Source: Amphibalanus amphitrite (Eukaryota; Arthropoda; Thecostraca; Balanomorpha; Balanidae). From it: 64,000 nucleotides of DNA. Of this stretch, positions 11,088-63,400 are shown piece after piece. The stretch covers positions 1,034,501 to 1,098,500 of the forward strand of contig NW_024881597.1 of NCBI RefSeq assembly GCF_019059575.1, written 5' to 3'. Below the pieces are notes generated by a model. The model saw only the letters and a list, made by a program, of their open reading frames with translations, did no database searches and was not told where the DNA came from. The position numbers and the translations under genes were made by a program. How positions within the stretch are numbered: the first letter of the stretch is position 1; every line of letters starts with the position of its first letter.

Positions 11088-11095
11088 CTACCAAG

Positions 11096-14664: not shown

Positions 14665-15012
14665 TTAAAGTGCCACCTTTTTACGGTTTTCGGTTTAAAA
14701 CGGTTTTCAGTAGACCTGACCCACCTATGACCTACCCTGAAGCTCGCTTCCCGAAATTCGTCCTAGTTTTCGAGATATCCGCATTCGAACTTCACATTGA
14801 TGCCATCACAAAAAGTGCGGGAGATGGGATTTTAACATGGTAATGTTACATTCCCATATTCCACACATTTATGATGGCTTTAATCTGAAGTCCAATCGCG
14901 GATATCTTGAAAACTAGGCCGAATTTCGGGAAACAGACTTCAGGGTAGGTCATAGGTGGGTTAGGTCTAGTGAAAACCGCTTTGTGTAAAAAAGGTGGCA
15001 GTCTTCCTTTAA
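14665..15012. mobile_element. TTAA-bounded palindromic MITE (element P)
   Basis: The 348-bp element is nearly all inverted repeat. Left arm words tgccaccttttt, cagtagacctgacccaccta and cgagatatccg match inverted right arm words aaaaaggtggca, taggtgggttaggtctag and cggatatcttg. A central loop of about 30 bp lies near 14835. The ends read TTAAAG...CTTTAA and resemble the ends of elements B1 and B2 (CCACCTT). Its right TTAA is also the left TTAA of the next element. Confidence 0.8.
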
Positions 15013-16185
15013 CCCGCGCCCTGATGGGGGGGGCCATTTTGGCCCCCCCTGTGGTTTTTCTTAAATAGCGAGAAAACGGCGGCGCGCAGCGCCGCCAAAT
15101 TTTGGGTACCTTACCGGGCATCAATTTGACACCTTCACACAAAATTTCAAGTCACAGGTCACCTCAGGTCAGGAGTTATTGAGGTCAAACTGAGGTCATG
15201 TTCGAGCAAAAATGAGCAAAAAACATGACATCTTGAAACGCTCACCAATTCTACAGTTAACAAGCAATTTTAAAGTTCTTTATGTGGTTGTGTAGAGAAA
15301 AAACGGCGCTACAAAACTGCTATCTCGGATTTTCGAAATTTTGGGATTTTGACCCCCAAAAATCAAAATAATTGATTTTTTTAGAAAAACTCAAAAAATT
15401 TCCAAATTTTTTCGAATTTCGAAAAAAACGGAATATATGTGATAGTGCCTACGCTCTTCGATATACATACCAAATTTTAGATCGATACCTCTTTTTTTGG
15501 CGAAGTTATAGCAAAAAAACTGTTAAAAATTGATGACGTCAAATTTTTTAACTCAATTTTTAGCAATTCTAGACCTCGTAGCGCAAAACGGAGACCACCA
15601 TTGAACTCCCCGTGACGAGCTGCATCGAATCGATACCCATTTTATGCAAAAATATCAACTTTGAAATTTGACCTAATTTGACCTGACCTTGACCTGACCT
15701 TGACCTGACCTTGACCAAAACGTGACCTAAGCTGGCCCTAAAGTCTGTCTGACCCACATAATCGCATTTGTCATGTAAAATGGACCATAAAACATGTATC
15801 ACACGCCACTTTCATATTGTGACCCCCCCAGTGACCTGACCTCTGTGACCTGACCTGGTATCAGTGACCTCAACTAGCAAAATATGTGTTTGAAGAACAT
15901 TTCTCCACCGATGATTTTCAATGAAATGCATTTTACTCGATTTTACAACGCATTTCTTGAAATGCCTGTAAACGGTGAAAATTCGACCTTTGACCTGACC
16001 TGTGACGTCATCGGTTTGACCGAGGTCAATGAAATTGGGTCACAAGGTAGTTCCCCGTTGGGGCTATCCAACACCGTTTACCGCTTGTCGCTATGTTGCG
16101 TGGTTCTCGAGATCTGAGGGGGGGGCCAAAATGGCCCCCCCATCAGACCGCGTTGCTCGGCAGACCCCATCTGGGCGCGGGTTAA
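15009..16185 (+). mobile_element. TTAA-bounded MITE (copy c), complete, 1177 bp
   Basis: The left (short) end is TTAA-CCCGCGCCCTGATGGGG, then a G-run, the core ccattttgg and a C-run. The inverted right end also starts TTAA-CCCGCGCCC and carries agatgggg, a spacer with aacgcgg, then ctgatgggg and the same core and C-run. Inside, aaattttgggtaccttaccg and catcaatttgacacc follow the short end, and arrays of tgacctgacct lie near 15665-15720 and 15830-15870. No transposase is encoded. The orientation given runs from short to extended end. Confidence 0.85.
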
Positions 16186-16686
16186 AGGGACTATCCCACC
16201 TTCTAAAATGTTGTTAAAACCAGTGAAATTGTGCCCGACTTTATAGATTGGATGACCAGGAACACGGTTCTGGCATTTATTTTTCATTAAACATTTTAGG
16301 CTTCCCATATTCCAAACACAAACTTTCAAATATGTGACGTCACAGCCCAAAATTACCTCCTTCCCCAGGCCACATTTCTGTCATAAAGCTGATGCTTTTT
16401 ACTCTGTAGGCACCACAACAAAGTTCAGACCAAGTTTTAAGCGATTTTTCAACGAACAAACCCATTTAAATCAGAATGACTAAACGAGGTGACGTCACAC
16501 TAACGGTCGCTCCATGTTGAAGATAGGGCCTTGTACAAGGCCCATTTTCAAATGAAGGGAACGAATTTCTTCAACACCAAGAGGCCGCGGGGGTTGCAAC
16601 CTAGATAGATAGTGGTTTCTGAACCTCGCCGCAAACTTGGCTATCTCAACTCAAACCCCATGTTAAAGGTGGGATAGTCCCTTTAA
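16182..16686. mobile_element. TTAA-bounded MITE, second family (B1), 505 bp
   Basis: The ends are TTAAAGGGACTATCCCACCT and its perfect inverse at 16668-16686. It shares its left TTAA with copy c and its right TTAA with copy d. Internal words (gttgagatagcc, tgacgtca) match the copy at 21838-22315 in inverted orientation. No coding capacity. Confidence 0.87.
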
Positions 16687-17873
16687 CCCGCGCGGGGCTG
16701 GGGTCTCCAGCCGAACGCGCGGGGCTGGGGGGGGTAAATTTTACCCCCCCCCCCCCTGTTATCTCCCGAACTAATGGTCCGATTTGGAAAATTCAAACGC
16801 CAATCGAAAGCTCTCATCACGAACTACTAAAAACATGTACTTAATTTAAAGTTTGAGGTCAAGGTCAAGGTCAGGTCAAGGGTACAAATTGCAAGTTTCT
16901 ACAGTATCGGCCTTGCACCGTAGTTGCCGAAGAATGGAGTCATGGACTGAGACTGATCGCCCAAAACGTGTTCTTAGGCTACCAAGACAATATTCGTTGC
17001 ATACAATATCATTCAGAGGTCAAGGTCAAGGTCAGGTCAGGTCAGGTCAGGTCACCAAAAAATAAAATATAGAAAAGGGCATGTGCGACACATGTTTTAT
17101 GGGTCATTTTACTCATAGAATTCAATAGGCACACTCAATAAGTGATATGGACCACCTCTGGATGAATTTCAGGTCGAGGTCAGGTCAAGGTCAGGTCAAG
17201 TGAGGTCAAATTTTGAAGTTGGTTGTTAAGGCCTAAAAAGGTGTCTATCTGATGCAGTTTTTCACGGCGAATCGAATGGTGCTACTTTTGTTTCCGTACG
17301 AGGTCTAGAACTTCCAAAAAAAGTCATTTTCAAAAATTTTTGTGTGTCGTGACGTCATAAAATTTTGAATAACTTCCACATTTTTTAACCGATTCTTCTA
17401 AAATTTGGTATGTAGGTGCACATAGACCACTTCTCTGACATATATTCCGGTTTTTTCGCTAGACTCAAAATTTTGGATTTTATAATGATTTTCCCAAAAA
17501 AGTCAGTTTTTTGAAAAAAAAAAAATTAACCAAAATCCAAAATTTTCAAAAAACCGAGATAGCCATTTGATAGACAAAGTAAAATTACGTATAACCTTTT
17601 TGTTACGTCTTGATTCCTTTAAAAATGAAGATGTTAGCGGCGTTTGAACTTTTGCCGTTTTTGAGGCGAAAATGGCGAACATGACGTCACTAAAACGTCA
17701 ATTTCTCAAAAATTTTCCGACGGATTTCGCTCAAATTTTCAGGGAACGTGTCAAATTGATGTACGAAAAGGTACTGAAAGTTTGGCGGCGCTGCGCGCCG
17801 CCGTTTTTGAGATATCGCAAGAATTCGCGAGGGGGGGTAAAATTTACCCCCCCCCCAGCCCCGCGCGGGTTAA
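16683..17873 (-). mobile_element. TTAA-bounded MITE (copy d), complete, 1191 bp
   Basis: Inverted relative to copy c. The right (short) end, read on the minus strand, is TTAA-CCCGCGCGGGGCTGGGG, a G-run, then the core taaatttta and a C-run. The left (extended) end has the same start, a spacer containing gaacgcg, a second ggggctggggg, then the same taaatttta core. The internal words aactttcagtacc and catcaatttgacacg follow the short end. Aggtcaggtca arrays lie at about 16856-16880, 17016-17053 and 17173-17215. Confidence 0.87.
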
Positions 17874-18258
17874 GCAAAAAAAAAAAAATCATCAAGAAAA
17901 TAAACAGTTGTCCTGCCCTCTGCTATTAATGTATTACGCTATTGGGATATGTGAAACGTCATTTCTCCATCGTGCAGGAAGAAGCATGCGTGGGAAATAC
18001 CTTCCTACACTTGGCCTTGGCTAATGTTTTGGCCTGACCTCGTATTTATCGAAAATACCTCGGGCCTAACTTTACATTCGCTAAAAAAAATCAGTCAGAT
18101 CTAAACATTATTCCAGCCCTGGCCAGGAATATATTGTCTACGATGATCGGCTCGAGCCCAGTTATATAGAAGAAGAGTATCCCCCCCCCCCCGGCATGAT
18201 GTGTTGCTAGCGGAACACCTCATCCGAAAAGGTGTGCTTGTGCCCGTTCAAAACTCAC
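17874..18258. other. Unassigned spacer
   Basis: A poly-A and a poly-C run flank low-complexity sequence; no gene seen. Confidence 0.5.
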
Positions 18259-18394
18259 CGTCTTTGTCGGCCGACTCCACGTTTATCATCGTCTGGGCAT
18301 ACGAGTACTTCTTCGCGGTATGTCTGATTTTGTGCAGGACATGCTCCTTCACGTCCTCCTCGAGCCCCATGATCATTCCCAAGTCAGTCTACAC
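18259..18394 (-). CDS. Candidate first coding exon, unrecognised gene
   Basis: A strong acceptor (GATGTTTCCAG) lies at 18395 and a donor (GACG|GTGAGT) at 18259. The ATG at 18376 opens MIMGLEEDVKEHVLHKIRHT and continues to ESADKD, leaving in phase 1. That phase joins in frame with the exon entering at 11087. The sequence is hydrophilic and helical-looking, with no family recognised. A non-coding leader exon ending at 20546 could precede it. Confidence 0.4.
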
Positions 18395-18488
18395 CTGGAA
18401 ACATCGCAAAATCACATTAATGAATCAGAGCCTATTTTAAGGGAATTTAACTGGGGGGGCAACCTGGAAAATTGTCTTTAATAATCCA

Positions 18489-19195
18489 TTAACCCTCGCC
18501 CGTATTGGTGTTTCCAGTAGCGAGCGTATAGGGGGGGGAGGGGGGGTCCGTTGGACCCTCCCCCTTGCCGTTTCGCCCCTGATCGAGCTAGAGCTTCGCG
18601 GAAAAAAACGACCGTGTTGCCCGTGATGAAAGGAAGCCGATTATACCCAATTTTAAGGTCCTAGGTCATCAGTTGACCTTCCAGGTCAGGTCATTGACCC
18701 AAAAGCCGGGAAAATCGGGACCTGTTAGAGCGTCGTAAAGAGTGGCTGCTATGGTTTTTCGGGGTGCTGATCACGAATATCATGTTAGTTATGATCATAG
18801 ATGATGTCTTCATGCATTTAGGCCAGGTCAGGTCAGGTCAGGTCAACCAGTAAGGGTTTTGCCGGGTATTCGTAGTAGGTGGCAACCGCCTCTGACAGCT
18901 TCGTAACATGTTACGAAGGCACCAAAACTACTTCGTAAATGGTCAAATGGTTGCTTAATTCGAATTCAGCTCCAAAAACTAGCCTAGAAACATATAAAAC
19001 TCGAAAATGTGAACCGAGGTCATCAAAGGTAAATGATCTGACCTGACCTTCCGGTGATCTTGACACCCACCCTAATGCATGGGAGCAACATCATATCCCA
19101 TGTTTGAACGTTTGAAACCACGAAAAGACTGCAAACGCGCGGCTAATGCGAGGCGACATACGCCGAATCGCGACCTCGGCCAAACATGGTGCCAT
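18489..19195 (-). mobile_element. TTAA-type MITE (copy e), extended end intact, short end lost
   Basis: It starts TTAA-CCCTCGCCCGTATTGG, has a spacer with ccagtagcgag, then cgtatagggg, a G-run, the core gtccgttggac and a C-run. The next 650 bp are the inverse of the complete copy at 62054-62952 (shared words include gatcgagctagagcttcgcg and ttcgtaacatgttacgaag). Homology stops around ggccaaacatggt at about 19190, where a minisatellite begins, so the short end has been replaced or deleted. Confidence 0.85.
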
Positions 19196-19735
19196 GGTGC
19201 TAGGCCGCCGGTGCATCTGAAAGAACTGTGGTGCCCCTGACAAGCCTGAAGTTCCAACGACAGGCCCGTGGTGCCCCTGACAGGCCCATGATGCCTTTGC
19301 GAGGCCGGTGGTGTCCACGTGAGGCCGGTGGTGCCCCTGGGCCCTGACAGGACTGTGGTGCTCCTGACAAGCCTGGAGTGTCCCCGACAGGCACGTGGTG
19401 CCACTAACAGGCCCAAGGTGTCCCAGTCCCTGCGAGGCCGGTGGTGTCCCTGCCAGGCATGTGGTGTCCATACTAGGCCTCTGGTGCCCCTGACAGGTCC
19501 GTGGCGCCCTTGCTAGGCCTATGGTGCCTCTGGCAGGCCTATGGTTCCCCTGGCGGGCCTGTGGTGGTACCCCTGACAGGCCCAAGGTGGTGTCCCTGCG
19601 AGGCCGTTGGGGCCCCTGGCAGGTCTGTGGTGCCCCTGGCAGACCTATGGTGCTCTTGCTAGGTTGATGGTGCTCCCAACAGGCCTGTGGTGCCCCTGGC
19701 AGGCCTGTGGTGTCCCCGGGCCCCAAGAGGGTGGG
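19196..19735. repeat. Minisatellite, about 20-28-bp degenerate units
   Basis: More than twenty imperfect units resembling ggcctgtggtgcccctgaca. The open frame of about 211 codons on the minus strand, rich in Gly, Thr, Leu, Pro and His, is a translation of the repeat and not a gene. Confidence 0.93.
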
Positions 19736-20545
19736 GGGTCATGAGCATGACCCATATGACCCACCCTTAGATACACCACTGGTCATTACTTACAGACTGA
19801 CTCATTTGACATCCATTGCAAAACAAGTCACAGTAGTTACGTAGTATGTTTGTCACCCTGTTCCTTTATGCCCATTTTTATAGTGGGCAAATCTCGACGA
19901 CTAGGGGGGCAATTCTGTTGAGTGCGGGGGCATTTGCCCCCCCAGTTAACATGTTAAAATAGGCCCTGTAATGAATGGAATTAACATCAAGCAGCATCAA
20001 GTGAACATTATATCATTGTGGAAGGTCAGGTCAGGTAAGGTCAGGTCAGGTCAGACAAGGGAGCCCAGTTCTGACTCTCGGGCGGGCGCAGACTCAGAGC
20101 CGACTGCAGCGCGTGGGGTAACCGGTCAGATGACCCCGCGGGCGGCGACGGCGGCGACGGCAGGAGGCAGAAAGTTGCGCTATCATGCCATACCTAGGTA
20201 TTTGGAGCATTTCCATACAGTGTCCCTGAGTGAGATGCTTATATTGTTACTTACACTGTGAGTTGCATGGTTTAAAAAATATCACAAAATCTATAACTTA
20301 TGAGCTCTACATAACAATCTTGATCACAACTTGACCTAAATCAGGGTAATTGACATGGCTGTTTCCCCTGGTTTCAATGGCCTTGAGCATGTCATGGGTG
20401 ACAATTTGTCTTCCAGAATTTCATCATCGCGGAAATCTTCGTCCGCAAATCTACGTCAACGCATTTCTTGGATTGTATGGTCATACTACGGATTACTGTA
20501 AAGTCATACTAACAAAACACAAAGTATACAGTAATTTCAGCTTAC
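19736..20545. other. Unassigned spacer with an isolated aggtca array
   Basis: Five or six overlapping ggtca words lie at 20026-20055 outside any element with definable ends. Otherwise no gene. Confidence 0.5.
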
Positions 20546-20650
20546 CTTCGAGGACTGGGACGCTTGCTCGGTTCTCTGACAGAAGGCCTTGGTTCTGACG
20601 ACTTGAGCACAATGGCGGTCGCGAATGGTCGCGAACTGCAGAGACATTCC
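20546..20650 (-). other. Candidate 5' UTR leader exon
   Basis: A donor (CGAAG|GTAAGC) at 20546 follows GC-richer sequence without a usable frame. Position and phase freedom fit a leader spliced to the exon at 18259-18394. The upper limit is arbitrary. Confidence 0.3.
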
Positions 20651-20829
20651 GAAAATATTATTCTTGGAATAATACTGTGCTGGACGAATAGATTAATCAC
20701 TTTTAGATTAGTTATGTCACAACGGAATAGGATTATCAAGAAAGTGATACAGTATTGCTTGAAATACGCTCCCGAATACTCCCGAAGAATAATGTTAGTA
20801 ATGCTACCACATAATATTACTCCATGGTT

Positions 20830-21366
20830 ATAAAATTATTGTCCGGACATGATAGTTTTATCACGAAGGACGTAATTTTTACACCTACATGAGAATAGTT
20901 TTATTCTGTCGCGTCAATTTATCACCCGTAATGGAGTATAAAAATTACCCTAAATACTCCACAGCGGTTTATTTTTATGCAGTTTTGATAAAAGTACTCT
21001 AGCTGTCAAATTTATTACCATCTAATGGGAGTTCAGCACAAATATATTCCAATGACCTTGTTTATCACTGTGAAATAAGCTAAAATTACCCCATGCCTCT
21101 TTGAGACTGATATAAATTTATAACCCGAAAGAATAAAAAGGACACGTGATAAAATTAGAAGATAAAATTAGCACTTGCTAAAACACAAAAGAGATGATTA
21201 TAGTACCAGGTTTAAGAATAACTTTCAAAAACGCCCTTAATGCAATGCAGAGAGTAAGAATACGCTACAAAACATAATCATTATATGCCATTGGTGCGTG
21301 ATTATTCGCCAAACTGGAGTGGAAAAACTCCAAAAATAACTCTCTAGGTGTAAGTTTTTTTCAGTG
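20830..21366 (-). mobile_element. CACTG-ended AT-rich element or fragment
   Basis: It ends gtgtaagtttttttcagtg, the inverse of the 8287 start, and has the same ttaccc/taaaatt-rich interior. The other boundary is unresolved. Confidence 0.45.
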
Positions 21367-21837
21367 CAGCCCGGAACAGGGGGTTGAGGCGTGGAGGAGG
21401 ATTCAACTATCCGGAAGATGGGAAGGACGGATTGACATCGAATCACCATTCTGTCCTGGCATTGTCTCGAGAAAGAGGTTACACGTGAAGGTCGCTGAGA
21501 GTGGGGCTATGACAATTTTGGATTAGGTGTAAACATGATAAGCTGGGAGTCGATTTGTTGTGATGCGCTACGCCTTACGCGGGCAATTTGTTAGAGCCGG
21601 ATCGGTCCTTTTTTTCTTTTTGCTGAGAGTGGGTACGACTAACCTGCAATGGAATTTAACTTTACTCCTAGGAGGGTGGTTAAGAATGATTGCGGATATA
21701 CGCGCATACGTGAGGCACTGGTTTACTCCCAATCCTCCGTTTAATTGTATTCAGTGTGGGGTCTGATAGGTGGGGGAAATGGCACTGTCTAGCTTCCAAA
21801 AAGAAAGCACCACCCTGGATACGTGTCGACCACAACT

Positions 21838-22315
21838 TTAAAGGGACCCTCCCACCTTAACATTAGTTTTGAGTTGAGATAGCCAAATTGGTGGCCATGG
21901 CCTGAAAATACCGGTTTGGGCATTCACAACATCGAAAAATGCTTTAATTCGGAGATATGGAATTTCAAACTTGCAGTTTTCGGATTCTAAGGGGCTAATG
22001 CATTGGTATGCCCCCTTAGAATTTGTGACGTCAGCGGAGATCTAACGATTTTTAAATCTTTTACTAAAACGTTTGGCAGCACGCGGTGGTATATGCTGCT
22101 TTGCGCGCAACAAATGCCGCACTTTCAAATAAAGTCGCTAGGAACAGCGGAGATCCCAAAAGTAAACAAAAGTAAAAGTCTAATAACTATCTTGAAAACC
22201 GGTGAATATTTTTCGATGAAATTTGGTAGATATTCATTTTTGCTCTTTCTGAACCGAGCGACATCACTTTCATGCCAATTCATTAACTTTTTTGAAGGTG
22301 GGAGGGTCCCTTTAA
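21838..22315. mobile_element. TTAA-bounded MITE, second family (B2), 478 bp
   Basis: The ends are TTAAAGGGACCCTCCCACCT and its perfect inverse. The words after the left end (ttttgagttgagatagcca) are the inverse of those before the right end of B1. The open frame crossing it (22003-22476) leaves the element on the right and shows no protein features. Confidence 0.87.
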
Positions 22316-22540
22316 ATGAACAGCAAGGACAAAGTAAATGGTTGATAATGACCGTGTTGCCATCTCCCCGTTCGCGAATCATGAAGTTATGCTTCATCAC
22401 TGAGGCTCTTAGGCGGGTTATAGAGCATGACAGGATGTGGGTTCCGCATTTTCAAGCAATAGTTGTCGACGGTTGATTGATGTTTTGTCAAAACATATTA
22501 GCATATACGGCCATTCAGTGTACTTTATGTCCGTCTGATG

Positions 22541-22750
22541 TGCCCGTCGTTGCGTTTTCGCAACGCTGATGGCGCCCGGTGTGCCCTTCGTTGCGATTTC
22601 GCAACGCATGTTTTTTACGTTTTTCTCGAAAAACTTTTGCTGCAGGTAAAAATTATTTTCGATTCCATGTAAGGCCCTGGTAGGAGCATGACATATTTTG
22701 ATTTCGTCGATTTTCATGATGGTCAATATTCCTGGGCATAAATGGGTTAA
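22541..22750 (-). mobile_element. TTAA-started hairpin repeat, second copy
   Basis: The inverted start is TTAACCCATTTATGCCC, as at 6641. The palindromes gttgcgttttcgcaac (22549) and gttgcgatttcgcaac (22590) sit near the other end. Boundaries are approximate. Confidence 0.5.
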
Positions 22751-22859
22751 ATTGAGCTTTTTGAACCAGTCACGTACATATATGATAAAACGAATGTCAC
22801 CATCGTGTTCCACGCCCAAAATTACCTAAAAAACATGTGTCACAGGCTGCGAAAGTTTT

Positions 22860-23247
22860 GATTTTCGGGGATACCTACCTAGGCATGATTGACCTGACCT
22901 TGACCCTAACCTATGCTTGACTGACCCCTACATGGATCTGACACTCTTGTAGGCTTGTGCACCGTTTTTACAGAGTTTATGACGAGAGACGCTCCCCATT
23001 GCGAGGTTCTGAAGTTCATGCTACTGAAAGCCCGATTTCAGGTGTTTGACCTGACCTTGACCCGACCTGTGACCTCAAAATTCAACTTTAAAGTACTCAT
23101 CTGAAGCGTCTCGTCGCGTTCTCTCGTTTGCCGCCTCGTGCGTTTCGCTGCGCCTATTGGTTCTCGAGTTATCGGCTGGGGGCGTTACACGCCCCCCCCC
23201 CCCAGCAAACGGCGGGTGGCGAAATACCCCAGCAACTGCCGGGTTAA
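22860..23247 (+). mobile_element. TTAA-type MITE (copy f), extended end intact, short end lost
   Basis: The right end, inverted, is TTAA-CCCGGCAGTTGCTGGGG, a spacer, then gtttgctgggg, a long G-run, the core cgtgtaacg and a C-run. The interior has tgaccttgaccc and tgacctgaccttgacccgacc words as in copies c and d. The left boundary is not definable. Confidence 0.65.
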
Positions 23248-23487
23248 TGTAAAAAAATCTTAGGAAATCTTAAAACGAACGTTCTTCTATCCATGAGAGG
23301 AGTCCTTGAATCATTCCTATGTGGCACTGCTTATAGCTAATCTGTAGAAAATGTCGATCTATGCCTATTAATCAACAGCCTAGGTTGCTGACACACTTGT
23401 TCTCAGTTCCAGCGAGGAGCTGGGTGCGGTTGCCGCCACCGTTTGCTGGCAGCTGGGGTGAAAGCAGCAGCCCGGCGCCGAGGTCTC

Positions 23488-28700: not shown

Positions 28701-28769
28701 TTATTTTGCTGACTCATTATTTATTTGCTTTTCCATTTCCTTCTTATACAAAGGTTGTTTTAATTGCAG
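25753..28769. other. Region between the GPCR and MEMO1
   Basis: Probably GPCR 3' sequence, intergenic DNA and the MEMO1 promoter. No other convincing coding sequence is seen. A short duplicated phrase (ggcccatgacactcca) lies at about 26553-26592. Confidence 0.5.
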
Positions 28770-28802
28770 GTGCTTGTTAAAGTTCTCAAAATAGGAACCA
28801 GG

Positions 28803-31800
28803 ATGTCTTCTATAAGGAAGGCAACCCATGCAGGAAGCTGGTACTCAAACTCAGGTAAGTGAGTTCTTCTCACAAAATGTTAGCCTCTGCCATTCTGACT
28901 GACTCAGGATGTTTCAATGAACTAAATGTAGATGGCATTGCCCAAGACTAATGCTCAATGTTCATTGTTCAACCTTTGCATTTTCTTCAGTCTATTTTGC
29001 TGCTACTTCAATGTTGCAGTAGTTTGTAAGCCAACACTGATGTTTGTTGAACGTTCATTGTGACAATTATGACTAGATAAGTGAAACTTTTTTAAATATA
29101 AAGGTACTGTATTATAGAAAGCCTTCGCAAACGCGTTTCGATTATATCATCTTCAGTGCTAGCTTCCCATAATACAAAAAGAAAATGGTACAAAAGTTCA
29201 CAACACATCGCAAATACACACGCTGCAATTTTTTCTCACAATATCACGGGTAGAATGTTTTTATATACTTCTGGAATGCAAGACCGCAAATCGCCCCTCC
29301 TAAGGTGTAAAAAATCATCATCATGATTTATCACAAACTGATGTTTGTGATAAATCATCGGTGATGGAGGGACACAGAATATGGCAGTCAGTGCAGCTCA
29401 GAGAAACTGTAATGGTGCCTTATCTGTCACAGAGCGGGAGCTGGGTGGCCAGCTGGAGCGGTGGCTGGATGCCGCCGAACTCTCCCACGGACCGGCGCGG
29501 GCCATCATCGCGCCGTGAGTACGGAGTAGAACAGAGTACCTGCGCTGCCGTGAGCACAGAGTTCGTGCGGCGGTGGGAGGGGAGTACCTACAGGGTGCGT
29601 GCAGCGGGGTCACGGTCGGGCGCGATGGGCACCTGTGTCGGGCGGGAGGGGTTCGTCTGTGCTTGGCACCAGTGCTGCTTCTTCCTTCTCTTGTTGTCGT
29701 ATTCGTATTTCGTGACGTTTTGGTACTTCGTGCCCAGCCGTTACCGTAGTCCTGGACCAGCTTCCCCTCCGGACTGCTGAGCTGACCCTCGCCTCCTCCC
29801 CCGTCGGCAGGCACGCCGGCTACTCGTACTGCGGCGCGTGCGGCGCGTTCGCCTACCGACAGGTTTCGCCCATCTGCGTGAAACGGGTGTTCATTCTGGG
29901 TCCGTCGCATCACGTGCGTCTGGCCGGCTGCGCCCTCTCCTCCACGCTCAAGTACAGCACGCCGCTGTACGACCTTACTATTGACCAGGTACGGCAGCCC
30001 TACAGGCACGGGACTGAGGACTGACCGGACCGTAGACCAAGTAATACACTAATACAGCCTTACAGGTACGGGACTGACAACCTGGCCATAGACCAAGTAA
30101 TGCAGCCTAACAGAATACCGCGGGAGTCGGGAGTGACAGCTTTACCCGACGATAGATCAGGCACGGCGCACACTGGTCGGAAACGCCCTCACGAGAGGCC
30201 ACGGGCGATTCCGGAGTTTCGGATTATTTTTTATATAGATCGATTTGAAATTGATCAAATTATTATACTTCGGCCAAAAAAACTTATCCGGGTGACCAAA
30301 AATAACTGTAATCAGCCCCCGAAGATGGGGTATCCCAGAACTCGGAAACTGACGCGGAGCAAGAGGTTTCTTGAGCCGGATATTCAAAGTCTTATTGCTG
30401 ATAGACACCAAATTGAAATCCCACGTATTATGCATCAAAATGTTCCTTATGAAGTTGCCGACTGGTCAGTGCAAAATTTTTGGTATACTTTTTCCCTAAC
30501 TAAGATTTACTGTAGCTTTTTTATGAAGGCTCTCCTACAGTGATTCTGGAATATAACTGCAAAGTTTAGGTAAGGAAACAACAGGTAGTCCCATCTAGTA
30601 CCACTCTGATTTTTTGTGAGATGAATCAGGATTTAAATTTACACCAGGGCAACATAAAAGCTAACTGCGCATATTTGCGCAAAATTTGCAGGAGCCGCTC
30701 TTTCTACCCAACTACCGCCCGCCCCGCCCCAGTTTCGGCTCGGCCGCCGCGCCCTGCTTACGCTGACCTGTGTGGCCTGCACGCATCCATGCGTAGTTGA
30801 CTGGTCATTAAAAACAGATGCGTTTGAGCTTATGAATTTTGTGAAAAGCGCGTTTTATGTATGCATTTATGTATGTATTGACATCAAAAGCCTTCCACAT
30901 ATTGCGTGGCGATTACGGCTTGCATTTAGAGAGCCTTGCTATTGACAACCATCACTCGACTGAAGAAAGTGGAAATTGAAACCTTCGTGAATATAAGACG
31001 CTGCAAATATAGGACACCTGTCACTGACGCCGGGTTACCTTGGGCCGTCTTTTTACATTAGATCACAATTCCGGTATTTAACCCTGGCCGGACCGATTGG
31101 TTTTCTATATTGACCGCAGAGGGTTGGTACAACTCCCTCGCCGTTTCGCCTCTAATTGAGCTAGAGCCTCGCGGAAAAAAGAGCTTGTGTGCCGTTATAA
31201 GACGCAACAATTAGGTACTACCCGATTTGAAGGTCTTAGGTCAGCCAGTGACCTCTTAGGTCAGGTAAGTGCCACAAGGCACGGGCTCGGTTTTAGGTTA
31301 ATTACTTTGCCAAAAATGGCCGCACTGCCGCGATTTTGGCATCATCGTGTTTGTCTAGCTCAGGCGCGTCGAATGCTATACTTGGTGTTCGGGTGAAGTC
31401 AACTTAAGGTGTTAACCTCGGGTCAAGGTCAGGTCGGAGCCCCTCAGGTCACGAAAATGGTTGAAGGAGGTCATATCGCATATCATTCGATTCGGCAGGT
31501 CTTCCTGAGTCCAATGGTGGCTTTCCCGACTCTCTAGCTCCATCTGATCAGGAGTTATTGACGAAAAACTTATATGGCCTTAAAGACGTCATAAATGACG
31601 TCACGCAAAGTCAACAATGCTAAAGTGAAGCACTGGACCTTGCAAGGAGTGCATGAAACCATTCCCGGTGCCCGAATAGCAGCTCCCAATTTCCCTTGTT
31701 GACTTAAAGTGGTGCTAGATCCTGTATTATACTCAATTATGACGTCATAACTTAACAGATTCACGTCATATATTTAGTGCTTGACATCCAAATGATAGCT

Positions 31801-34800: not shown

Positions 34801-35053
34801 AAAAAGTAGCTGTTCCCAATATGAATCTATGAACTTGAGACCAAATTAACCTATAATTCACGCCAGCGTGTAGTTCCACCACCAGCTCACTAGCGGCGCT
34901 CCTGTCCGTTCCCAGGCGGTGGCCAAGCTGAACGAGACGCCAAACGGGCACCGGATGAAGCTCAAGTTCCTCAAGTACGCGCAGTCGAGTCAGTGCCGCT
35001 CGCCCAGCGACTCCTCCGTCAGCTACGCGTCCGCGTCGCTCATCTTCGAATGA
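28803..35053 (+). CDS. MEMO1: MEMO1 orthologue (mediator of cell motility 1), complete
   Basis: Seven coding exons: 28803-28854, 29433-29514, 29811-29988, 32895-33010, 33546-33768, 34426-34530 and 34916-35053. All have GT-AG borders and matching phases, and total 894 nt, or 297 residues, the length of human MEMO1. Family landmarks: THAGSWYS at the start, [57 protein letters not shown] and KYAQSSQC. The metal-binding residues expected from the family are present: His in PHAGY, His in GPSHH and Cys in TICGRHP. MEMO proteins are cytosolic, bind copper or iron and influence redox state and motility. The exon with the ATG begins after an acceptor at 28769, so a 5' UTR exon lies upstream. Confidence 0.97.
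29325..29356. repeat. Perfect hairpin, 14-bp arms, MEMO1 intron 1
   Basis: gatttatcacaaac and its inverse gtttgtgataaatc flank tgat, about 75 bp before exon 2. Confidence 0.8.
29996..30112. repeat. Two-copy tandem duplication in MEMO1 intron 3
   Basis: The phrase ggcacgggactga and the later gtagaccaagtaat recur as ggtacgggactga and atagaccaagtaat, about 65 bp apart. Confidence 0.75.
31078..31440 (-). mobile_element. TTAA-type MITE (copy g), diverged extended-end fragment
   Basis: Lies inside MEMO1 intron 3. It starts TTAA-CCCTGGCCGGACCGATTG and continues ccgtttcgcctctaattgag, alignable to ccgtttcgcccctgatcgag in copy e, followed by aggtca words. The hairpin G-run is largely lost and the short end is not found. 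Confidence 0.65.
33274..33545 (+). pseudogene. Two decoy copies of the start of MEMO1 exon 5
   Basis: The acceptor plus the first roughly 40 nt of exon 5 occur three times, starting at 33274, 33413 and 33546, each after an intact pyrimidine-AG. The unit lengths are 139 and 133 bp and include the tgtgtctgatg-rich intron tail. Only the third copy continues into the rest of the exon. Copy 1 runs to a stop near 33354; copy 2 stays open only by running out of frame into copy 3. The first 39 nt of copies 1 and 3 differ by one base, so the duplication is recent. Confidence 0.92.
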
Positions 35054-35640
35054 CGGCCGGCCCCGCCGCCGCCGCCGCCGCCGCTCCGTGCCGCTCCGCC
35101 CCGCTCACCGCGCCGCCGCGTTTTGTACACGCCGCCGCTGCCCCGGAGTGACGCCGGCCACCGCGCCGCGCGCCAGCGCCGGACACCCCGGTGACCCGCC
35201 ACCAGTGCCGACCGACGGGGCCGCCCGCCGGCACCCGCAGCTATTTATCTCATCGATACCGAGCGGCGCGGCGTACAGTGCCGCGGGCCGGGACAGTGGG
35301 GCCGGGACGCGCCACCCGCCCGCCACCGCCGCGTGATAACGTCACTTTACCAGCCGGCGGCCGACTGATAGACAATACACACACTGTAATCAAACGGACT
35401 GCATAGAGTGCTGCCGCCGCCCGTCCAGGCCGGCGAGAGTGAGAGGATTTCGGTGGCAGGGGACGGTGCGAGGAACAAAGAGCGGAACAACCACTGTCGT
35501 CCAGAATCTCCTTTGCCTGGTATATGTCCGTCGGTAGCAGCACTGGACGTCCAGTGAGGAATTACAGTGAGCACCATTATACATACATGTACGTTATGTG
35601 TGGTCGGCGTTTGGCAAACACCAGCAGAGGCCTGGCGCGG

Positions 35641-35646
35641 TTTATT
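35641..35646 (-). promoter_or_regulatory. Candidate SEL1L polyadenylation signal
   Basis: AATAAA on the minus strand, the first found downstream of the SEL1L stop at 36346. Confidence 0.4.
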
Positions 35647-35880
35647 GCGAACGTGCATGCGGCGCTGATACTGAACCCGTGCTGCGTGCCATCACCGCAC
35701 ACAGGGACCGCGCGGGCGGCTGTCGATTCCAGCCCCGCCCCAGAGAGGCCGGCCGGTGCAGAGAGCGATCTCCTCGGGCTTCCCCGGGCGACCGCCGCCG
35801 GCCGACCGTCCGAAAACCAGGTGCAAGGTGTCCTGCCGACGCCCATATGCAGGCGTCAGACTGTCACCAAGTATCACAGG

Positions 35881-36345: not shown

Positions 36346-42874
<6,529 letters not shown>

Positions 42875-42889
42875 CACTGAGCCCGACAG

Positions 42890-48400: not shown

Positions 48401-51400
48401 CGGCATGACCTCTGCTGCTGGGGGGGGGGGGGTCCGACCCCGTGACTCCGGCCGATGGGGGGGGGGGGGTCCGACCCCGTGACCCCACCGCTGGGGGGGG
48501 GTCTGATCCCGTGACAGGCACAGCTGGCTCCCGGGAGTTCCTGTTTGTCAGATCTGCGGCGGCTGCAGCCCTGCTGAGCAGGCCACTGGGTGTTCCCCTC
48601 CGTCGGTGGAGCGGCCTATCACGCGCTACCCGGCCCTTCTCTCCTCTGTGCACCGAGGAAAAAGAGAAGCGAGTTGCGACTTGCTGGGAATATTTCTGAT
48701 CCAACGTAGCTGGATCCCAGATAAACGTCATTCATATCTGACAGCTTGAGATGCGTATGTTTGGCATGATATGATATGGTTACGACCGTGATGATGCGTA
48801 ATTGCGTTTATGCATTTCATCCTCGTCTTAGTACGAGTATACGCACTCCAAAGCATGTGTTACATAACAGCTCTTGTGGTACGTTTTAGCGAGGAAGCGT
48901 GACGTCCATCGCACTTTGTTTCATTGAACCGTACTGCCAAACGGCGGACGCTGTGGTATGCCGGTCCCATTTGCTGCTTTGAGCCTTTGTCGGTGATTGA
49001 GGTGGGCCCGGAACCGTGTCCGATTTCCGCGGGGTCATAGGTCCCCCAACGCCGGTCAAAGTCCCCTACACTCACCATCACGTGTGAAAGCCGAGACGAC
49101 ATTTCGGAGGTGTTATGTTTCGACAAAGTCTCCTAGAGGAGGTCTGAAACTGGATAGTGAACACGTCACACGCCATGGCTATTTAAATCGGCGCTTACTC
49201 ACTATACACTCAGGTGATAAGTGCTCCATGGCCTGAGTGGCCACCACTACCAAAATTCGATACCTGTCTGGAGATAATGCGCATTGCGCACGAGGTAGAT
49301 CGAAACTCGACGCCGCCCGATGTTACTTTACGCTTCTCCCGTCCCTGCCTTTCCAGCCCTCTGTTTGAGAGTAGGTGGCTGATTCGTGCTGACGCGCTGG
49401 TTTCATCAGTCCAGTGACGCGCCGTGTGCGGATGAGCTACCACCGGCGCGGGAGGGAGCCAGAGGCCCACCGTCCGCCCTGTCTGAGCCTCTCTGAGGTG
49501 GCGGCTCCCTGGGCCTACCCGGAGGCGGCGGCGGTACTCTGATGGGCGCCGGACACGTCAGGATGGTACACGAACACACGGTGATGACGTGACGGCTCGC
49601 ATCTGTCCGTGACTGTCGGGAGAATCTGTCCACCGCGGCGACACGCGTTGGCGACGGGGTGTTTGTTGACATGACTGTGATATTTGGGCTCGATTGTGCC
49701 AATGCGCCACGTGTCGGGACAGCTTTACTGACAAAGCTGAAGACAACGAAGAGATGGTCACTGATCAGGCTTCCAAAAACCAAGGATGCGTTTGACACTA
49801 TAGTAGCTAAGACTGTATGTTATGGCGTCCGAAAGTTTGTATACGTTTCGGTCATTTCCTAATTTGAGGTGATTTGTTGCGATCTACATAGTTGTGATAA
49901 GTGGCATTCCGAAACAAGATCCGTTGTTGCTGTAACACGGCTATGATCTACAATGAAGCTAGAAGATGTCAATTGGACCCATAGGCTCCTGTAAAACTCG
50001 CCCCCTACGCCTCCAGATGTGACGGGTTTTCACGCGCGCCTTTCGCTTTCGTCGCCTGGGTGACTCATCACTCAGCAGCAGTTCCCGCAGCGCGCGTGAT
50101 TCAGGTCGGCTGGCCTTTTTGTGGTGAATATCTGCACCAGTTAGTGCATTCTGCAAGAACGACTGGCACCCGAGCCGAGGGAACATCTGTGTGACAAATG
50201 GTCACTGATGATTCACAACACGGAACAGAATGATACGGTTTTCGTTTTTCTCCCGAGAGAGGTGGTCTTAGTCTCTAAATGAACCCAAACTGGGTGATGC
50301 TGTCTCCTATAGTGTCACCGAAATAGAACAGGGTCGGTCCTGAGCTTCCTTGATAATGCATGAAGTGGTCGCTCCGACTCCAACTCAGACCCGAATCGAA
50401 CCTTTTTAACGTAAGTCCCAACACAACCGAACACCGGACTATGCGTTACCCTCTCTTAGACGGGCTCTCTTTCTGCGTCATCGGCTCCTGCCGCGGCCAT
50501 ACAACTGCTCGTCGGGGGCAAGTACGGTCCCGCCTGACGGTCTGCCCCGAAACCGACAGCCACAGGCCAGCGACCGAGCTCTGGGCTGCGGTGTCACAGA
50601 CTAAGCTTTATACTTTAGAGCTTTGCTAAGTGCCATATACCTTGATTATCGGTATTCTTCGGTTTTGTTTGTGACAGTAATGGGCAACGAATATAACGAG
50701 AATCGTTTCCACTGGGCACTGAAGTGTGATGCGATTGTTTCGTTGAAGCTGAGTTCCACTGTGGGCGCTGCTGTCGCGAACGGCTAAAGCATTTGGCCAC
50801 GATCCACTCAGTGATTGGCGACTCGCATTGTCTTAGGGGATCGTTTTGTCACTTTTGATTCCGTCAGTCGTATGCCGTATTCCATCTACATGATGCGCCA
50901 GGAAATCCTACTGACGGTATGTATATGAGATGACGACATTCCCTGTAAGTACGAGTTATCAGTTATGCCGTTTCGCCGTACTCTGCTAGTGTCAGTCAAA
51001 CTACGGGAACAACAGTTGCGCTTTTCTGCTCATGACTTCATTGAGTTCGATTCATGAAACACTATCGTGCCACCGTTTCTCGCGGGCGGGGCAGCCGCGT
51101 GGGCTCCCTTCCTCATGCGCCCACGCGTGCTCGAAGGGTGTGCAGGGGCGGGCTATATCAAGCTGTGGGGAGAACCGGCAGTTCAGGGGACGGCCAGGAC
51201 CCATTGAATCGGGGAACAGTAGCGGTCGTCGACAGGGACCAATTATCTCATTGTGCTCATTAACTGGGTCGGGCCTTCCCCCTTCGTCTCCCCAAAACCG
51301 TCACCCAACCCCCATGGTACCCCATGGCGAGGCTCAGCTCCTGTGAATTGAGCTCATTCTCAGCAGCCGTTTTATGATCACAGTTCACATTATCTGCCAG

Positions 51401-57400: not shown

Positions 57401-60400
57401 TCGTCCACGCTGTCGCTCTCTGCGTTCCTGCGGTAACTCCTCCTTCTCTTGCAGAGACTGCTGGGCTCGCACCAGTCGGACGGCACGCTACAGCTATGGG
57501 TTAGCCACCGCGGGGATCCGTTCACAAACGCCCAGTTCCCGGCCGGTCTGCGCGCTATCGACTACGAAGTGGTGGACGTTAGTGATGATCAGGTGAGCGC
57601 ATCATCGCCGGAGGTGATGGGTGGTGCTGGTGGGGAAGGCATGGCACTCGGCAGCTACTCTGCTGAATGAGCGGAACAGGACATTTTGGACGGCGTTATC
57701 AGATTACGTTCGAAGTTACGTTCAAAAAGTACGTTCAGCGCTATCAGAACGGCTCTCTTACTGCAGAGGTGGGTTTCACTGTTGCGGCAGACCTATCCCA
57801 ACGACCACCTTCGACTATCTTAGGCTAAACATTGTGGTAGCTCTACCCCCAAGATGGTTAGATTACCTACCGTCATTGACAGCTCTTCCTCAATGACCAC
57901 TACCACCAACAACTGCAGTGATTGTATCGTAGTAGCGTCCTAGCCCCTATGTACTGACTACCGTCATCTACCGTCAGGTAATGGTGGCCGTCATCCACAA
58001 CGCCACCTCGTCCAGCTTGTACGTGTCGGCCGTGCCGGACAAGCGCGGCGTGCGCTTCTCACTCTCACTGGAGAACGTTCTCACGCACAGCACCGGAAAG
58101 ACGTTCGCCGGATCGTGGCTCAGGTGAGAAACTGGTGGACGCTGATGGGAGCTGGGCTTTTGGGTTCGAATCGGTATTATTGCAGTGGTATCATGTGTAG
58201 CTTATGTCTTGCAAGATGCTTTGTTCTTGTGCCTGTAAAACCTCATTATCATATTATTTGTATTCCAATACTTTTTATATCTTTTCTACTAATTATATCG
58301 CTATTTTCTTTCGCCTTTTTGCTGTATAAGGCTCGTCAGTAGCCCTAGCCTTACCTGATCGAACTAATACACCCGTCGGTTTGATGTATCGATGCCGCAA
58401 ATTGGTTTCGTGCCCGGTGGTGTTTTTCGACACGCGAGCTGCGGCAGCCGTCGACATATGTTGTAACACCTGATTGCGCTCACAGCGTGAGTCACAGTGC
58501 AGAAGCGGCGTACAGTCACCTACCGCGGGTACCTAACGGTCGCTGACGCGGCTTGGTACTGGGGCGCTGTGGTCTGTTTTTACCGGGCTCGGCTGTAGCT
58601 GCAGCCATTCACTCGCCTCGGGTGCATGTTTTGTTCACGATTTGCAACTGCGTACAGCAGCGAATATTCGTCACGTGTTTCGTCACGTGTCACGTGTCAC
58701 GTGTTTTTCGTGAATCATCCTCACGAATTCTAAGCGAATCCTTGTTTTGAGACGAATAACAGCTTTTTCTAGGACATGCTTCACTTGTCCACCCGCCCTT
58801 TGGCGCACCCTAATTTGCAGACAGACCGCGGGCATGCCTACTCAAGGCTACTTTACTAATACCTAACTGACAAGGATACATACTGACGTGCCTACTGATG
58901 GAAAAACATATGGAGTGTTTGTTGCGCCGATCTGTCATACCTGCTCTAGCCATGCTACGGATCGACTGTCCCCACATATTCTCCCTTGACCATTTGCCCT
59001 TCTCTCTCCCGTCTCCCTGACCAGCTCCCTGTCTCCCCGGCAGTGTGGTGGGCGGCGACTTTGTGGACGTCCACCGTGTGAGCGGCCTGCGTGGCATCTA
59101 CCTGGCGTCGCGGCTGCCTCCCGACTATGACGGCCAGCAGGCCAGCCGGCTGGGTCCCGAGCACGTACTGACGCTCATCACGTTCGATAAGGGCGGCCGC
59201 TGGCAGCCGGTGTCCCCGCCGACAGTTGATGCCACTGGTGTGCCGATACACTGCGAGAAGGTGGGTAACGAGTCGACACACGTCATACCTACTGTAGGAC
59301 GTGCCTATCCACTGCGAAGAGTAGGTGACGGTATAAAAACATCCGCGTCGGCACGAATTTGTCGCGTCGGCGCAATCCATGCTGTGTTTGCTTCAGGGTG
59401 GTACGGTAGAGTTATGCATTCATGAACGTACTTAGTGCCAAAGTCTATACTATCTGTGTTTGGCTATTTCAATTTTCTTACCGCATACTTGTCTTGAACT
59501 GTTTCTCGAATCTCGGCCGTTGCTGATTGTTTTGTCTTTTGACTTCCATTTCCTACTTTCTGACGCCCGTTATCGCCGTCTCTTCCCCTCCGCAGGCGGA
59601 GAACTGTTCGCTGCACATCTCCCAGGAGATGACCAACCTGTACCCGGGCACCAAGTACATTCCGGTGCTGTCGTCTTCGTCGGCCGTCGGGCTGGTGATG
59701 GCCACCGGCGTCATCGGCGACTCGCTCAAAGGCCACCCGTCGATCGTGCTCAGCCGCGACGCCGGCGCTACGTGGCGGCAGGTGAGGATAGGGACGGGAG
59801 GTGATAGGAGCGGACGGGTCGGCTAGGTGCGGGAAAAGAAGGAGAAGAGTCAGGAAAGGGGAAGGGTTTATAGACAGCTCAGGCTGTGTGCATGACACGA
59901 GATGGTTGAGCTCGGCATGGGAGCTGGAAAGGAACACAATGTGTGGATGTGATACTCGTTGCAGAAGTCCGATCGAAGGAAATCTACCTTGCTTGGTTTT
60001 TTAGTTTCTACTGCTGGAGTAAACCACTTTTTGACATCCTGACGGTTTCATACACTGACGGTGATGGTATCGGATGTTTCTACAAAGTGCAGTCGGGAGT
60101 TTCTTCCTGACCTCTGTTCTGCCTCTATCTGCCCCTTCCTTCCGCCGCAGGTTCTGCGCGGTCGGTTCCTGTACACGTTCAGCGGGTATCTCTCTAACCT
60201 TTGCTCCTCCTTCCCCTACCTCAGGTGCTACGCGGCCAGTTTCTGTACGCGTTCGGTGACCACGGCGGCCTGATCGTGGCCGTGCGGCGCTACAGCGAAG
60301 GAGGCACACGCGAACTGCTCTACTCGCTCGACGAAGGCATGACGTGGGGCCGCCACCTGTTCTTCACGGACGAGGTGAAGGTGTACAGTCTGCTGACGGA

Positions 60401-63400
60401 GTCGGGTGGCTCCGGCACCGTGTTCCTCATCTTCTGCGCGCGCATGGACCGCAGCGGCTGGATCTCGGTCCGCGTCGACCTGAGGTCCCAGTTCAGTGAG
60501 TGGCGCAAAGTGGACTCGTCCGAGTTGGTCTGGGCAACAGGGTTTGGAACGTGTTATGTTTTATACTTACCCAGCTTTGAATGTGTAGATTTTTTAAAGC
60601 TTTTATTAAGCGTTTATTAATGACGTGCGTCGAATGGAAACCATTAACACCAGCTTACCATTAATGTCCTCTGCAGGCCATTAATTACCCAGCCGCCCTA
60701 ACAAAGCTGCAGCCTCGCCCTGCCTCCCTGTAAATGCTGCCTACCTCTTTCACATTTCCTGACCTAGCGTGTGTCCTGCGCAGGACACAACTGCACGCAG
60801 GACGACTACAAGCTGTGGACACCGCGCGGCCGCTCGTCGGGCCGCGGCTGTCTGCTGGGTCGAAAGGAGACGTACCGACGCCGACTGCCGCACCAGCGCT
60901 GTTACATCGGGGAGGGCGGCCGCGAGCCACTGGTCTCTGTGGAAAACTGCGCCTGCCTGAGAGACGACTACGAGTGGTGAGTTAGCTACGGGAGGGTTCA
61001 AAGGGGTGTGGTTGTGTATTACGTGTCAGGGTCACTACTTGTGTTTAGGTCTGTGAGAAGGGGATAACTAGGACTGTGGTGAGCGCTTATTGGAGTGATC
61101 ACAGGTGCGGCTTCGAAGGGTCAGCTCCGTGGGAAGAATCACGGATCACGAGGTGTCCCGGCCGCCACCGGGCCGGGACGGGATCGAGCTGATAGGTGTG
61201 ATTTTTAGGCCTGTCGATGTGGCTGCTGAGGCTGGCAGTGTTTGGTCTGTGGTTTAGGCGATAACACGCTGGTTGATAGTTGCTACGAAATGAGTTCGAT
61301 ACGATGTTATCACTTGTTTTCGGATAAGGAAGTCAACAGCCATGACGTGAGCTGTTTGTGGTCAAAACAGACGAGCTTGGGCACATTGTCTCAGGTGGTA
61401 GTATTTTTTGTTCCGGATTGTTGTGTCTATACGATTCTCGATTTGTATTCTTGTAGACCTGCTCTGGCGATGTTTAACTTGATTTTCTACCTTGCTGACT
61501 GGCTGTGATCGGGGTTTCTCTGACAGTCCTGGCTCACCTCCCTCCCCTCTCGGCAGCGACTTTGGATACAAGGAGTCAGCCGTGGGCGCTACAGGTCGGA
61601 CGGCCACCTGCGTCCGAGACCCAGAGGTGGCCCGACTTCCGCCCGCCTTCGACCCCACCCAGTGTCCCGAGGGCTCCTACTACAACGTGTCGCGGGGCTT
61701 CGTGCGCGTGCCTGGCGACACGTGCCAGCCGGGACCCGTGGCGGCTGTGCTGTTTGAGCCCGACCCGCGGCCCTGCCCGGTCAGGTGAGGGAAGGGAGAC
61801 GGCTAGCCGGCACTCGGCGTTGACGGGTAATGGTGTCGGCTGGCTTGTCTGTTGTCTGTTTTCTGTTGATAGTTAGCCGCTGAGCTATTATATTAGGGCT
61901 CCGCCGCATACTACGGCCTTTTTTTAGTTTGACAGCTGGTGTTTCTCTAAGCTGCCATGCAGTGTCTTGACTTATGGACGTTGATGATGAGCCTTTTCAT
62001 CGACATTGCAGTGAGGTATGATCAGATGATATGGTCTAACCTTTTCTGCACATTTAACCCTCGCATGTGTAGGGGGGGGGGGTCGGATGGACCCCCCCCA
62101 TGGTTTTTCGCGAATAACTCGCGTAAAAAGCGGCCGATCGCGACGAAACTTTCAGTACCCTCGCATTGATCAATTTTACACCTACCCTGAAAATTTCATG
62201 ACCCTGACCCAAATGACCTTTGACCTGTGACCTCTTTTCCGAGACCATGTTTGGCCGGAATCGCGATTTCGCGTATGTCGGCTCGCACTAGCCGCGTGTT
62301 TGCAAGCTTTTCGTGGTTTCAAACGTTCAAACATGTGATTTGATGTTACTCCCGTGTGTGTGTCAAGGTCACCTGAAGGTCAGGTCAGGTCATTGACCTT
62401 TGATGACCTCGGGTGACCTCGGGTCACTTTTTCGAGTTTTACATGTTTCTAGGCTAGTTTTTTTTTAGCTGAATTCGAATTTAGCAACCATTTGAACATT
62501 TACGAAGTAGTTTTGGTGACTTCGTAACATGTTACGAAGCTGTCAGAGGCGGTTGACACGTACTACGAATACCCGTCACGACGCCTACTGGTTGACCTGA
62601 CCTGACCTGACCCGACCTGGTCTAAATGCTTCAAGACATCATCTGTGATCAAAACTAACACGATATTCGTGATCAGCACCCCGAAAAACCCCTTAGCAGC
62701 CACACTTTACGACTTTCTAACAGGTCCCGATTTTCCCGACTTTGGGTCATTGACCTGACCTGGAAGGTCAACCAATGACCTAGGACCTTAAAATTGGGTA
62801 TCATCGGCTTCCTCTCGTCACGGGCAACACGCTCGTTTTTTCCGCGAAGCTCTAGCTCGATCAGGGGCCAAACGGCAAGGGGGGGGGGTCCAACCGACCC
62901 CCCCCCCCTACACATTAGAAGCTGGCAAACGCCGCACACATGCGAGGGTTAACATATCCACTTACGCAGCCGTGTCTGCCTTTCTGTGGTAGCTTCAAAG
63001 ACTAGACTGTTCAAAGATTGTTCACTGTCAGTAGTCAGTACAGACAGAACCATCAAGCGGCAGCTCGACATCTCCGTAATTGCCAATTTCTGTTTTCCGG
63101 ACCATTTCTTCCTTATATGAGTTATATCATTATGATATCATTATGTCCCACTACCCTCTCTCGTCTCTCGTGTTCTCTTGCGCCTTCTCCGTCCCCTATG
63201 CCATCCTCTATGGTTACATGTCATTCCACTTCTCTCCGTCTCCCGGCCTTCCTCGCTCTCCCTCGTCCTCCCTCGCTCTCCCTTTCTAACTGCCACTGCT
63301 CTGTGTCCCCAGTGAGATCTCCGACTTTCTGCTGCTGGCTCGCCGAGATGCCATCCTCCGACTGCCCCTGAAGGATGTCGAGAGTGGCGTAGCGCCGACG

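Follow-up and report, generated by a model that had tools for sequence, protein, structure and literature searches.

The piggyBac transposon of T. ni has ends of unequal build. A left-end palindrome lies at bp 17-33, bp 34-63 of the right end nearly repeat bp 7-35 of the left end, a 19-bp palindrome is bound by a dimer of the cysteine-rich domain (CRD), and the right end carries a 17-bp insertion and a sequence duplication, an uneven layout that has been called puzzling (PMC7351741). By our reckoning these numbers put the centres of its two palindromes at bp 25 and 53 and the offset between its tags at 27, the tag being a motif that recurs at the ends. In the present work we analysed a window of 64,000 nt of Amphibalanus amphitrite (contig NW_024881597.1 of GCF_019059575.1, positions 1,034,501-1,098,500 of the forward strand), in which a set of miniature inverted-repeat transposable elements (MITEs) inserted at TTAA carry a 7-bp tag and a palindrome at both ends. 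With T. ni piggyBac (LE35/RE63) these elements have in common the TTAA target, a tag-like motif, palindromes, a right-end duplication and nearly equal spacings (PMC7351741). Whereas T. ni piggyBac is one element with one specificity, 18 or more tags were found here in one genome. Also unlike T. ni piggyBac, the palindromes consist of G- and C-runs on either side of a core of 9-11 bp, and most of the complete copies inspected are MITEs.

Related systems resemble the elements in other respects. The coral CMITEs described by Wang and colleagues are piggyBac-related TTAA MITE families which are defined by their terminal inverted repeats (TIRs) and have an internal region more conserved between families, and one CMITE family is tied to a piggyBac-like transposon (PMC2872659). 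The present elements are like them in TTAA, in their relation to piggyBac and in interiors more conserved between families than the TIRs. This general pattern is therefore already in print, and the statement of an earlier note on this DNA that nothing of the kind had been described for piggyBac-like MITEs was mistaken. Unlike the elements studied here, CMITEs are about 100 bp long, and the available part of that description is without long/short asymmetry, an internal second tag or tag-palindrome coupling (PMC2872659). A limited literature search found no report of tag-palindrome coupling or long/short asymmetry in MITEs. In Myotis piggyBat, too, a core motif is repeated and an imperfect palindrome for the CRD comes after it, but there are three motif-palindrome units at one end and no palindrome at the other, and the CRD fold is unrelated (PMC11707139). 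Daphnia Pokey, stated to belong to piggyBac (PMC3849761), is alike as a transposon family with MITE groups, mPok1 and mPok2 (PMC4912750). The elements of the window are non-autonomous piggyBac MITEs, of which at least 18-21 families coexist in this one animal genome.

Agreement of tag and core between the two ends

At the short end of an element, TTAA is followed by the tip CCC(G/T)CGC, the 7-bp tag and the palindrome (G-run, 9-11 bp core, C-run). At the long end TTAA, the same tip and the tag are followed by a spacer of about 15-20 bp, a second tag and the palindrome, which gives three tag copies per element, one at the short end and two at the long end. Element c (15009-16185, plus strand, family CCTGATG / CCATTTTGG) has its short end on the left, with the tag at 15020-15026 (plus), and its long end on the right, with the first tag at 16168-16174 and the second at 16141-16147 (minus). 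Element d (16683-17873, minus strand, family GGGGCTG / TAAATTTTA) has its long end on the left, at 16683, with the first tag at 16694-16700 (plus) and the second at 16721-16727, and its short end on the right, at 17873. Element h (62054-62952, plus strand, family ATGTGTA / GTCGGATGGAC) has the short end left and the long end right, with the first long-end tag at 62935-62941 and the second at 62909-62915 (minus). The cores of the left and right ends were identical in c and in d and differed by one base in h, and an outer TTAA was present on both ends of c, d, h and a fourth element, a. The description of c, d and h as TTAA MITEs, with their coordinates, tags, cores and outer TTAAs, was verified. 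Tags do match at both ends, as the earlier note had claimed, although its single tag per long end has to be replaced by two. What that note took for a hairpin is explained more simply by a palindrome in duplex DNA, of the kind present in piggyBac (PMC7351741).

Besides c, d and h, elements a, e and g and the pair b + i followed the tag rule in the window. Across seven long ends of the window the summed match score of first and second tags was 39 against a re-pairing mean of 30.4 (7 bp), and at widths of 7, 8 and 10 the number of re-pairings that matched as well was 3, 8 and 5 of 5040, the true one included. For the four complete elements, the true pairing of short-end with long-end tags was the best of 24 re-pairings.

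Genome-wide pattern searches were run on the window's own assembly (807.6 Mb). The short-end pattern gave 13,230 forward and 43,019 reverse matches, counts which are inflated because the gaps of the pattern are variable, and the long-end pattern, for which two lengths were allowed, gave 14,849 and 25,590; the control pattern gave 0 in each case. Both patterns require G-runs and intact tips, and decayed copies are therefore under-sampled. Two surveys were made among the matches listed, to which all counts from them are limited: one of 74 short ends from the first 3 Mb of contig C1, and one of 48 long-end sequences in 21 families, with each family represented by its first listed member.

Eighteen different tags were found in the 74 short ends, rather than one tag common to most. 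Those of c, d, h, e and a recurred in 3, 12, 5, 3 and 8 of the ends, respectively; the tags are thus family-specific and not, as had been claimed, element-specific. For the 14 tags seen at least twice, the majority core of the family was present in 60 of 70 ends, and the mutual information between tag and core was 3.56 bits (tag entropy 3.71 bits), with 2.22 as the highest value of 2000 shuffles. In the 21 long-end families the match between first and second tags was 6.05/7 within and 3.96/7 between families, with exact identity in 10 families and at least 6/7 in 15, and 0 of 100,000 re-pairings equalled the true match.

Both ends were compared in 23 complete elements of 14 families, including the rejoined b + i. 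The choice of partner ends was made by eye, on the basis of their orientation and distance, and was not blinded; L014, among 13 distinct short-end loci, was excluded as having no partner within reach, and the CCGCACA short core was entered in its family form, the core of copy L027 itself being degenerate. The short tag and the first long tag matched at 6.43/7 within families and at 2.68/7 between them, and the cores at 7.5/9 within as against 3.99 between; for tags and for cores alike, 0 of 100,000 re-pairings reached the true match. The left-right lock of tag and core proposed in the earlier note was therefore confirmed in 14 families: identity within elements was well above that between families, and left and right ends were alike beyond random pairs. 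Both ends were also present in 15 of 20 further fetched copies of three families. One short and one long end were found in 38 of 38 complete copies, mostly about 0.9-1.2 kb long, and no element combining the tags of two families was seen among these 38.

The spacing of the ends was close to that of T. ni piggyBac. In the window the second long-end tag lay 24-27 bp inward of the first, and 21 bp inward in g, at the edge of the range searched there; in the long-end survey, in which offsets of 20-29 were tried, the best value was 25-28 for all but one of the 21 families, the exception having 22. Palindrome centres, sought at about bp 17-47 of the short end and 41-77 of the long end, lay 24-33 and 52-62 bp inside the TTAA, respectively, in the 23 elements. 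Outside these ranges were the degenerate element a, with 21 and 67, and a single long end with 69. The asymmetry itself, with spacer and second tag at one end only and a palindrome at both, was found in the 14 families for which both ends were available. Tips were CCCGCGC or CCCTCGC, and the T. ni piggyBac tip also begins CCC. A terminal CC[C/T]T motif is given for the piggyBac superfamily (PMC2872659), and its fourth base, T, was present only in the CCCTCGC families.

Transposase loci and three sister families

A profile search of the genome returned 116 places with a piggyBac-type transposase (DDE_Tnp_1_7, PF13843), and flanks were inspected for about 40 of these (30 loci from the profile search and fetched stretches). 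Five transposase loci lie inside ends of the tag/palindrome type: locus A on contig C778 (tag CGGCACA), locus B on C527 and C1173 (ACGACCA at the long end, with an ACGCCTA short end seen on C527), locus C on C702 (CCCGTTG), locus D on C33 (CCTGGTG) and locus E on C552 (GTTGCTG), the last with only its short end seen. Most other transposases inspected had other TTAACCC ends or none in reach. No ends faced the transposase gene of C53 within 1.3-1.7 kb on either side, and within the same distance of that of C152 nothing was found but a single CCCGCGC tip, which lacked a palindrome and lay next to the gene fragment. The frame of locus A holds one stop codon in the fuller match, and 'autonomous' therefore denotes origin and not proven activity.

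Transposase B had a Pfam match to PF13843 and aligned with the T. ni piggyBac transposase (6x67) at E=2.2e-78 over residues 117-666, with the CRD included; a homologous transposase with an alignable CRD is thus a further likeness to T. ni piggyBac. Its aspartates aligned at what we take to be the catalytic DDD places of piggyBac. The match to piggyBat was weaker, with an alignment which stopped at chain residue 473 of 578 and did not cover the CRD, and from these alignments the CRD of transposase B appears to be of the pB type and not of the pBat type. Pieces of the non-coding sequence around loci A and B recur at 90.6-97.0% identity in MITEs that bear their tags, and pieces of that around locus C recur at about 85-89% in element c. 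Judged by sequence, the elements are MITEs, being short, non-coding, present in many copies and descended by internal deletion from autonomous elements, with parts of their bodies matching the flanks of loci A, B and C. Transposases of differently tagged loci were 38-58% identical (7 of 10 pairs compared), and BLASTP over slightly different stretches gave 62% for A and B and 31% for B and C. At positions 2370-2470 of L070 two elements of the ACGACCA family, one the carrier of the locus B transposase and the other a MITE, lie head to head with one shared TTAA.

Families ATGTGTA (element h), CCGTATA (element e) and CGGCACA have one colinear MITE body common to all three. Consensus counts were made from 18 sequences (8, 6 and 4 per family), seven of 25 having been left out (L080, L083, L085, L088, L078, window copy e and the locus-A piece). 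Body consensuses differed at 29/763 positions between ATGTGTA and CCGTATA, at 16/773 between ATGTGTA and CGGCACA and at 37/764 between CCGTATA and CGGCACA (2-5%). The end modules of the same pairs differed at 22/106, 42/105 and 35/103 positions, respectively (21-40%), and the outer tips were identical among the three families. The proposal that ends diverge faster than interiors was thus upheld for these sister families. In a first comparison ATGTGTA and CCGTATA bodies were 91.2-91.5% alike and two ATGTGTA copies 91.1%; in a larger sample mean body identity was 94.3% within ATGTGTA and 92.9% between ATGTGTA and CGGCACA, while the CCGTATA means were spoiled by shortened copies.

A tree was built from 24 interiors, the 5' piece of locus A (201 columns) having been dropped beforehand; L080, L083, L085 and L088 are partly misaligned or shortened at their ends in it. 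Each tag appeared once on this tree, at 2 changes, the fewest possible, as compared with a mean of 10.5 and a lowest value of 7 in 2000 shuffles, although the tree is weak, with support of 32-60 at several nodes. Recurrent shuffling of tags among bodies was considered as a candidate and was not seen in the 24 interiors of this weakly supported tree. In a gapped alignment, with gaps not counted, the spacer showed from 2/16 to 5/18 differences as compared with 6/14 to 11/14 in the tags.

Explanations for the joint change of the ends

We regard it as highly probable that each family's transposase binds to the tags and palindromes, hence their match within an element, and that the families are set apart by transposases of their own. 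On this explanation the outer TTAA with CCC(G/T)CGC would be a cleavage tip common to the families, the 7-bp tag would be read by the core (DNA-binding and dimerisation) domain of the transposase, and the spacer and second tag of the long end would add a further, inner group of sites, like that of T. ni piggyBac. Synapsis of the ends would require a single transposase assembly to contact all three tags and both palindromes, and left and right would agree for that reason; the differences between families would come from the diverged transposase that serves each of them. The role of tags and palindromes as binding sites we infer from homology, and each transposase would be specific for its own tag. 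Of the origins suggested in the earlier note, co-selection with a tag-reading protein is the one best supported by the sequence data, since five transposase loci carry such ends.

Several observations weigh against so simple a correspondence. The tags CCTGCTG and CGGGCCG have one core in common, such that tag and core are not strictly one-to-one, and CCTGGTG is paired with CTATTTTTTG in L026, a MITE, whereas at locus D it accompanies CCATTTTGG; tag and core are for these reasons partly separable. Elements of the ACGACCA family carry ACGCCTA at the short end (5/7), those of the CGGCCGA family carry CGGACCT as the first long tag (4/7), and the core is seemingly inverted between the ends in CCGTATA and at locus D. 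Loci C and D have similar cores, but their transposases are only 39% identical, and likeness of cores therefore does not simply follow likeness of transposases.

Selection, copying between ends and exchange of modules are all possible candidates for the joint change of the ends. A trivial or chance similarity of G-rich tags in a few copies would have some basis in that tags are often G-rich and run into the G-runs, and in that different families already share 2.7-4 of 7 bases on average; with thousands of ends genome-wide and 0 of 100,000 re-pairings in 21 and in 14 families, its probability is negligible, and chance agreement was ruled out by the re-pairing tests in the window and in both sets of families. 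The copying of a mutated tag or core to the other end, by gene conversion or template switching and maybe through pairing of G-run with C-run, would homogenise the ends regardless of the transposase. Both ends have indeed changed together on short branches in ATGTGTA, CCGTATA and CGGCACA, the divergence jumps at the G/C-runs, themselves common to the compared families, and in a second TTAA family of the window (elements x and z, below) a 3-bp core differs at both ends together. If the short end were copied onto the long one, however, the spacer and second tag would be lost, and 38 of 38 copies keep both end types; moreover the short and long ends of ACGACCA still carry unlike tags in each of the two copies seen. 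We therefore consider copying between ends improbable.

Somewhat less improbable, although still unlikely in our judgement, is an exchange in which, while a gap was being repaired, template switching at the shared G/C-runs joined the body of one MITE to the end modules of a different family. Bodies would on that account look young and end modules old, in line with the three sister families, in which one colinear body (16/773 to 37/764 differences) is joined to end modules differing by 21-40%; the transposase identities of 38-58% (7 of 10 pairs) likewise suggest that the transposases split long before the bodies did. Those belonging to ATGTGTA and CCGTATA did not turn up among the roughly 40 of 116 places with inspected flanks. 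As evidence to the contrary, the tags fit the interior tree with the minimum of 2 changes and without recurrent shuffling, several nodes having low support, and no hybrid was seen in 38 complete copies. The spacer is also less diverged than the tags, which is not what a wholesale swap from a distant family predicts and fits selection on the tags better. Returning to recognition by family-specific transposases, a wider form of that reading holds that there are 18 or more mutually distinct recognition codes, each made up of a tag and a palindrome and each with a transposase lineage, and that bodies gain new codes at both ends almost at once, the recognition modules turning over, by evolution or by exchange, about 5-19 times faster than their body; we put this forward tentatively, as a proposal with somewhat less than an even chance of being correct.

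Other elements of the window and meaning of the families

The family of element c has more copies elsewhere in the genome, L050 among them. Element e (18489-19215, minus strand, family CCGTATA) has its long end at 18489 and lacks the short end; its homology ends near a minisatellite and its interior is about 87% identical to h. Element g (31078-31277, minus strand) consists of a long end only, with GACCG in both tag copies and a subterminal region 72-73% identical to h and e. Element a (11289-11947, minus strand), a degenerate copy of family ACCGACG with the long end left and the short end right, occupies a TTAA junction flanked by two direct repeats of 74 bp which are 74% identical (11219-12017).

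The fragments b (6215-6644, plus strand, its outer TTAA mutated to ATAA) and i (22747-23247, minus strand) had been considered as the two ends of one 17-kb transposon, a view replaced after alignment to an intact paralogue. They are the short-end and long-end halves of one 0.92-kb GTTGCTG element, split by a 16.1-kb TTAA insertion with TTAACCCATTTAYGCCC ends (6641-22750). Fragment b aligns to bases 2-417 of an intact GTTGCTG copy elsewhere in the genome and i (22752-23247) to bases 419-923 of it, and the TTAA at both junctions (6641-6644 and 22747-22750) duplicates an internal TTAA of this copy, in which the empty site is visible. The ends of the insertion belong to another TTAACCC family. Within it lie a, y, c, x, d, f, e and z, and outside it g and h.

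Element x (16182-16686, plus strand, ends AGGGA-CTA-TCCCACC) is another TTAA element, lying between c and d with TTAAs in common with both, and z (21838-22315, plus strand, ends AGGGA-CCC-TCCCACC) is its relative, with a core likewise locked within the element. This second TTAA family shows the same lock, with GGGA-CTA-TCCC at both ends of x and GGGA-CCC-TCCC at both ends of z, and one subterminal stretch of about 59 bp is 85% identical between x and z while the cores differ. Elements y, c, x and d (14665-17873) stand back to back with a single TTAA per neighbouring pair, as if later insertions had picked the terminal TTAA of earlier elements. A further TTAA element with CTGGGGGGGCAA ends, f (18447-19949), contains e and a minisatellite with a period of about 20 bp. 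At 48419-48527 there are tandem units of G-run, TCCGA and C-run resembling a multiplied end palindrome, and no element end was recognised there. No remnant of a piggyBac transposase was detected in the window at E 1e-3 with 37 query open reading frames, an Rfam search of the whole window at gathering thresholds gave no match, and neither did a search of viral contigs with two exact patterns.

The asymmetry of the ends known from T. ni piggyBac is seen in 14 families while the letters of the motifs differ. Structural features (spacing, three tags and two palindromes) can thereby be told apart from those that probably confer specificity (tag and core). The families also offer a testable system for joint change of a transposase and all of its binding sites. 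If the recognition codes are orthogonal, many non-cross-reacting piggyBac vectors could be drawn from them, and, if the wider reading with its 18 or more codes is true, the genome of A. amphitrite would amount to a naturally occurring collection of orthogonal piggyBac systems, in which transposase and ends turn over together as lock and key.

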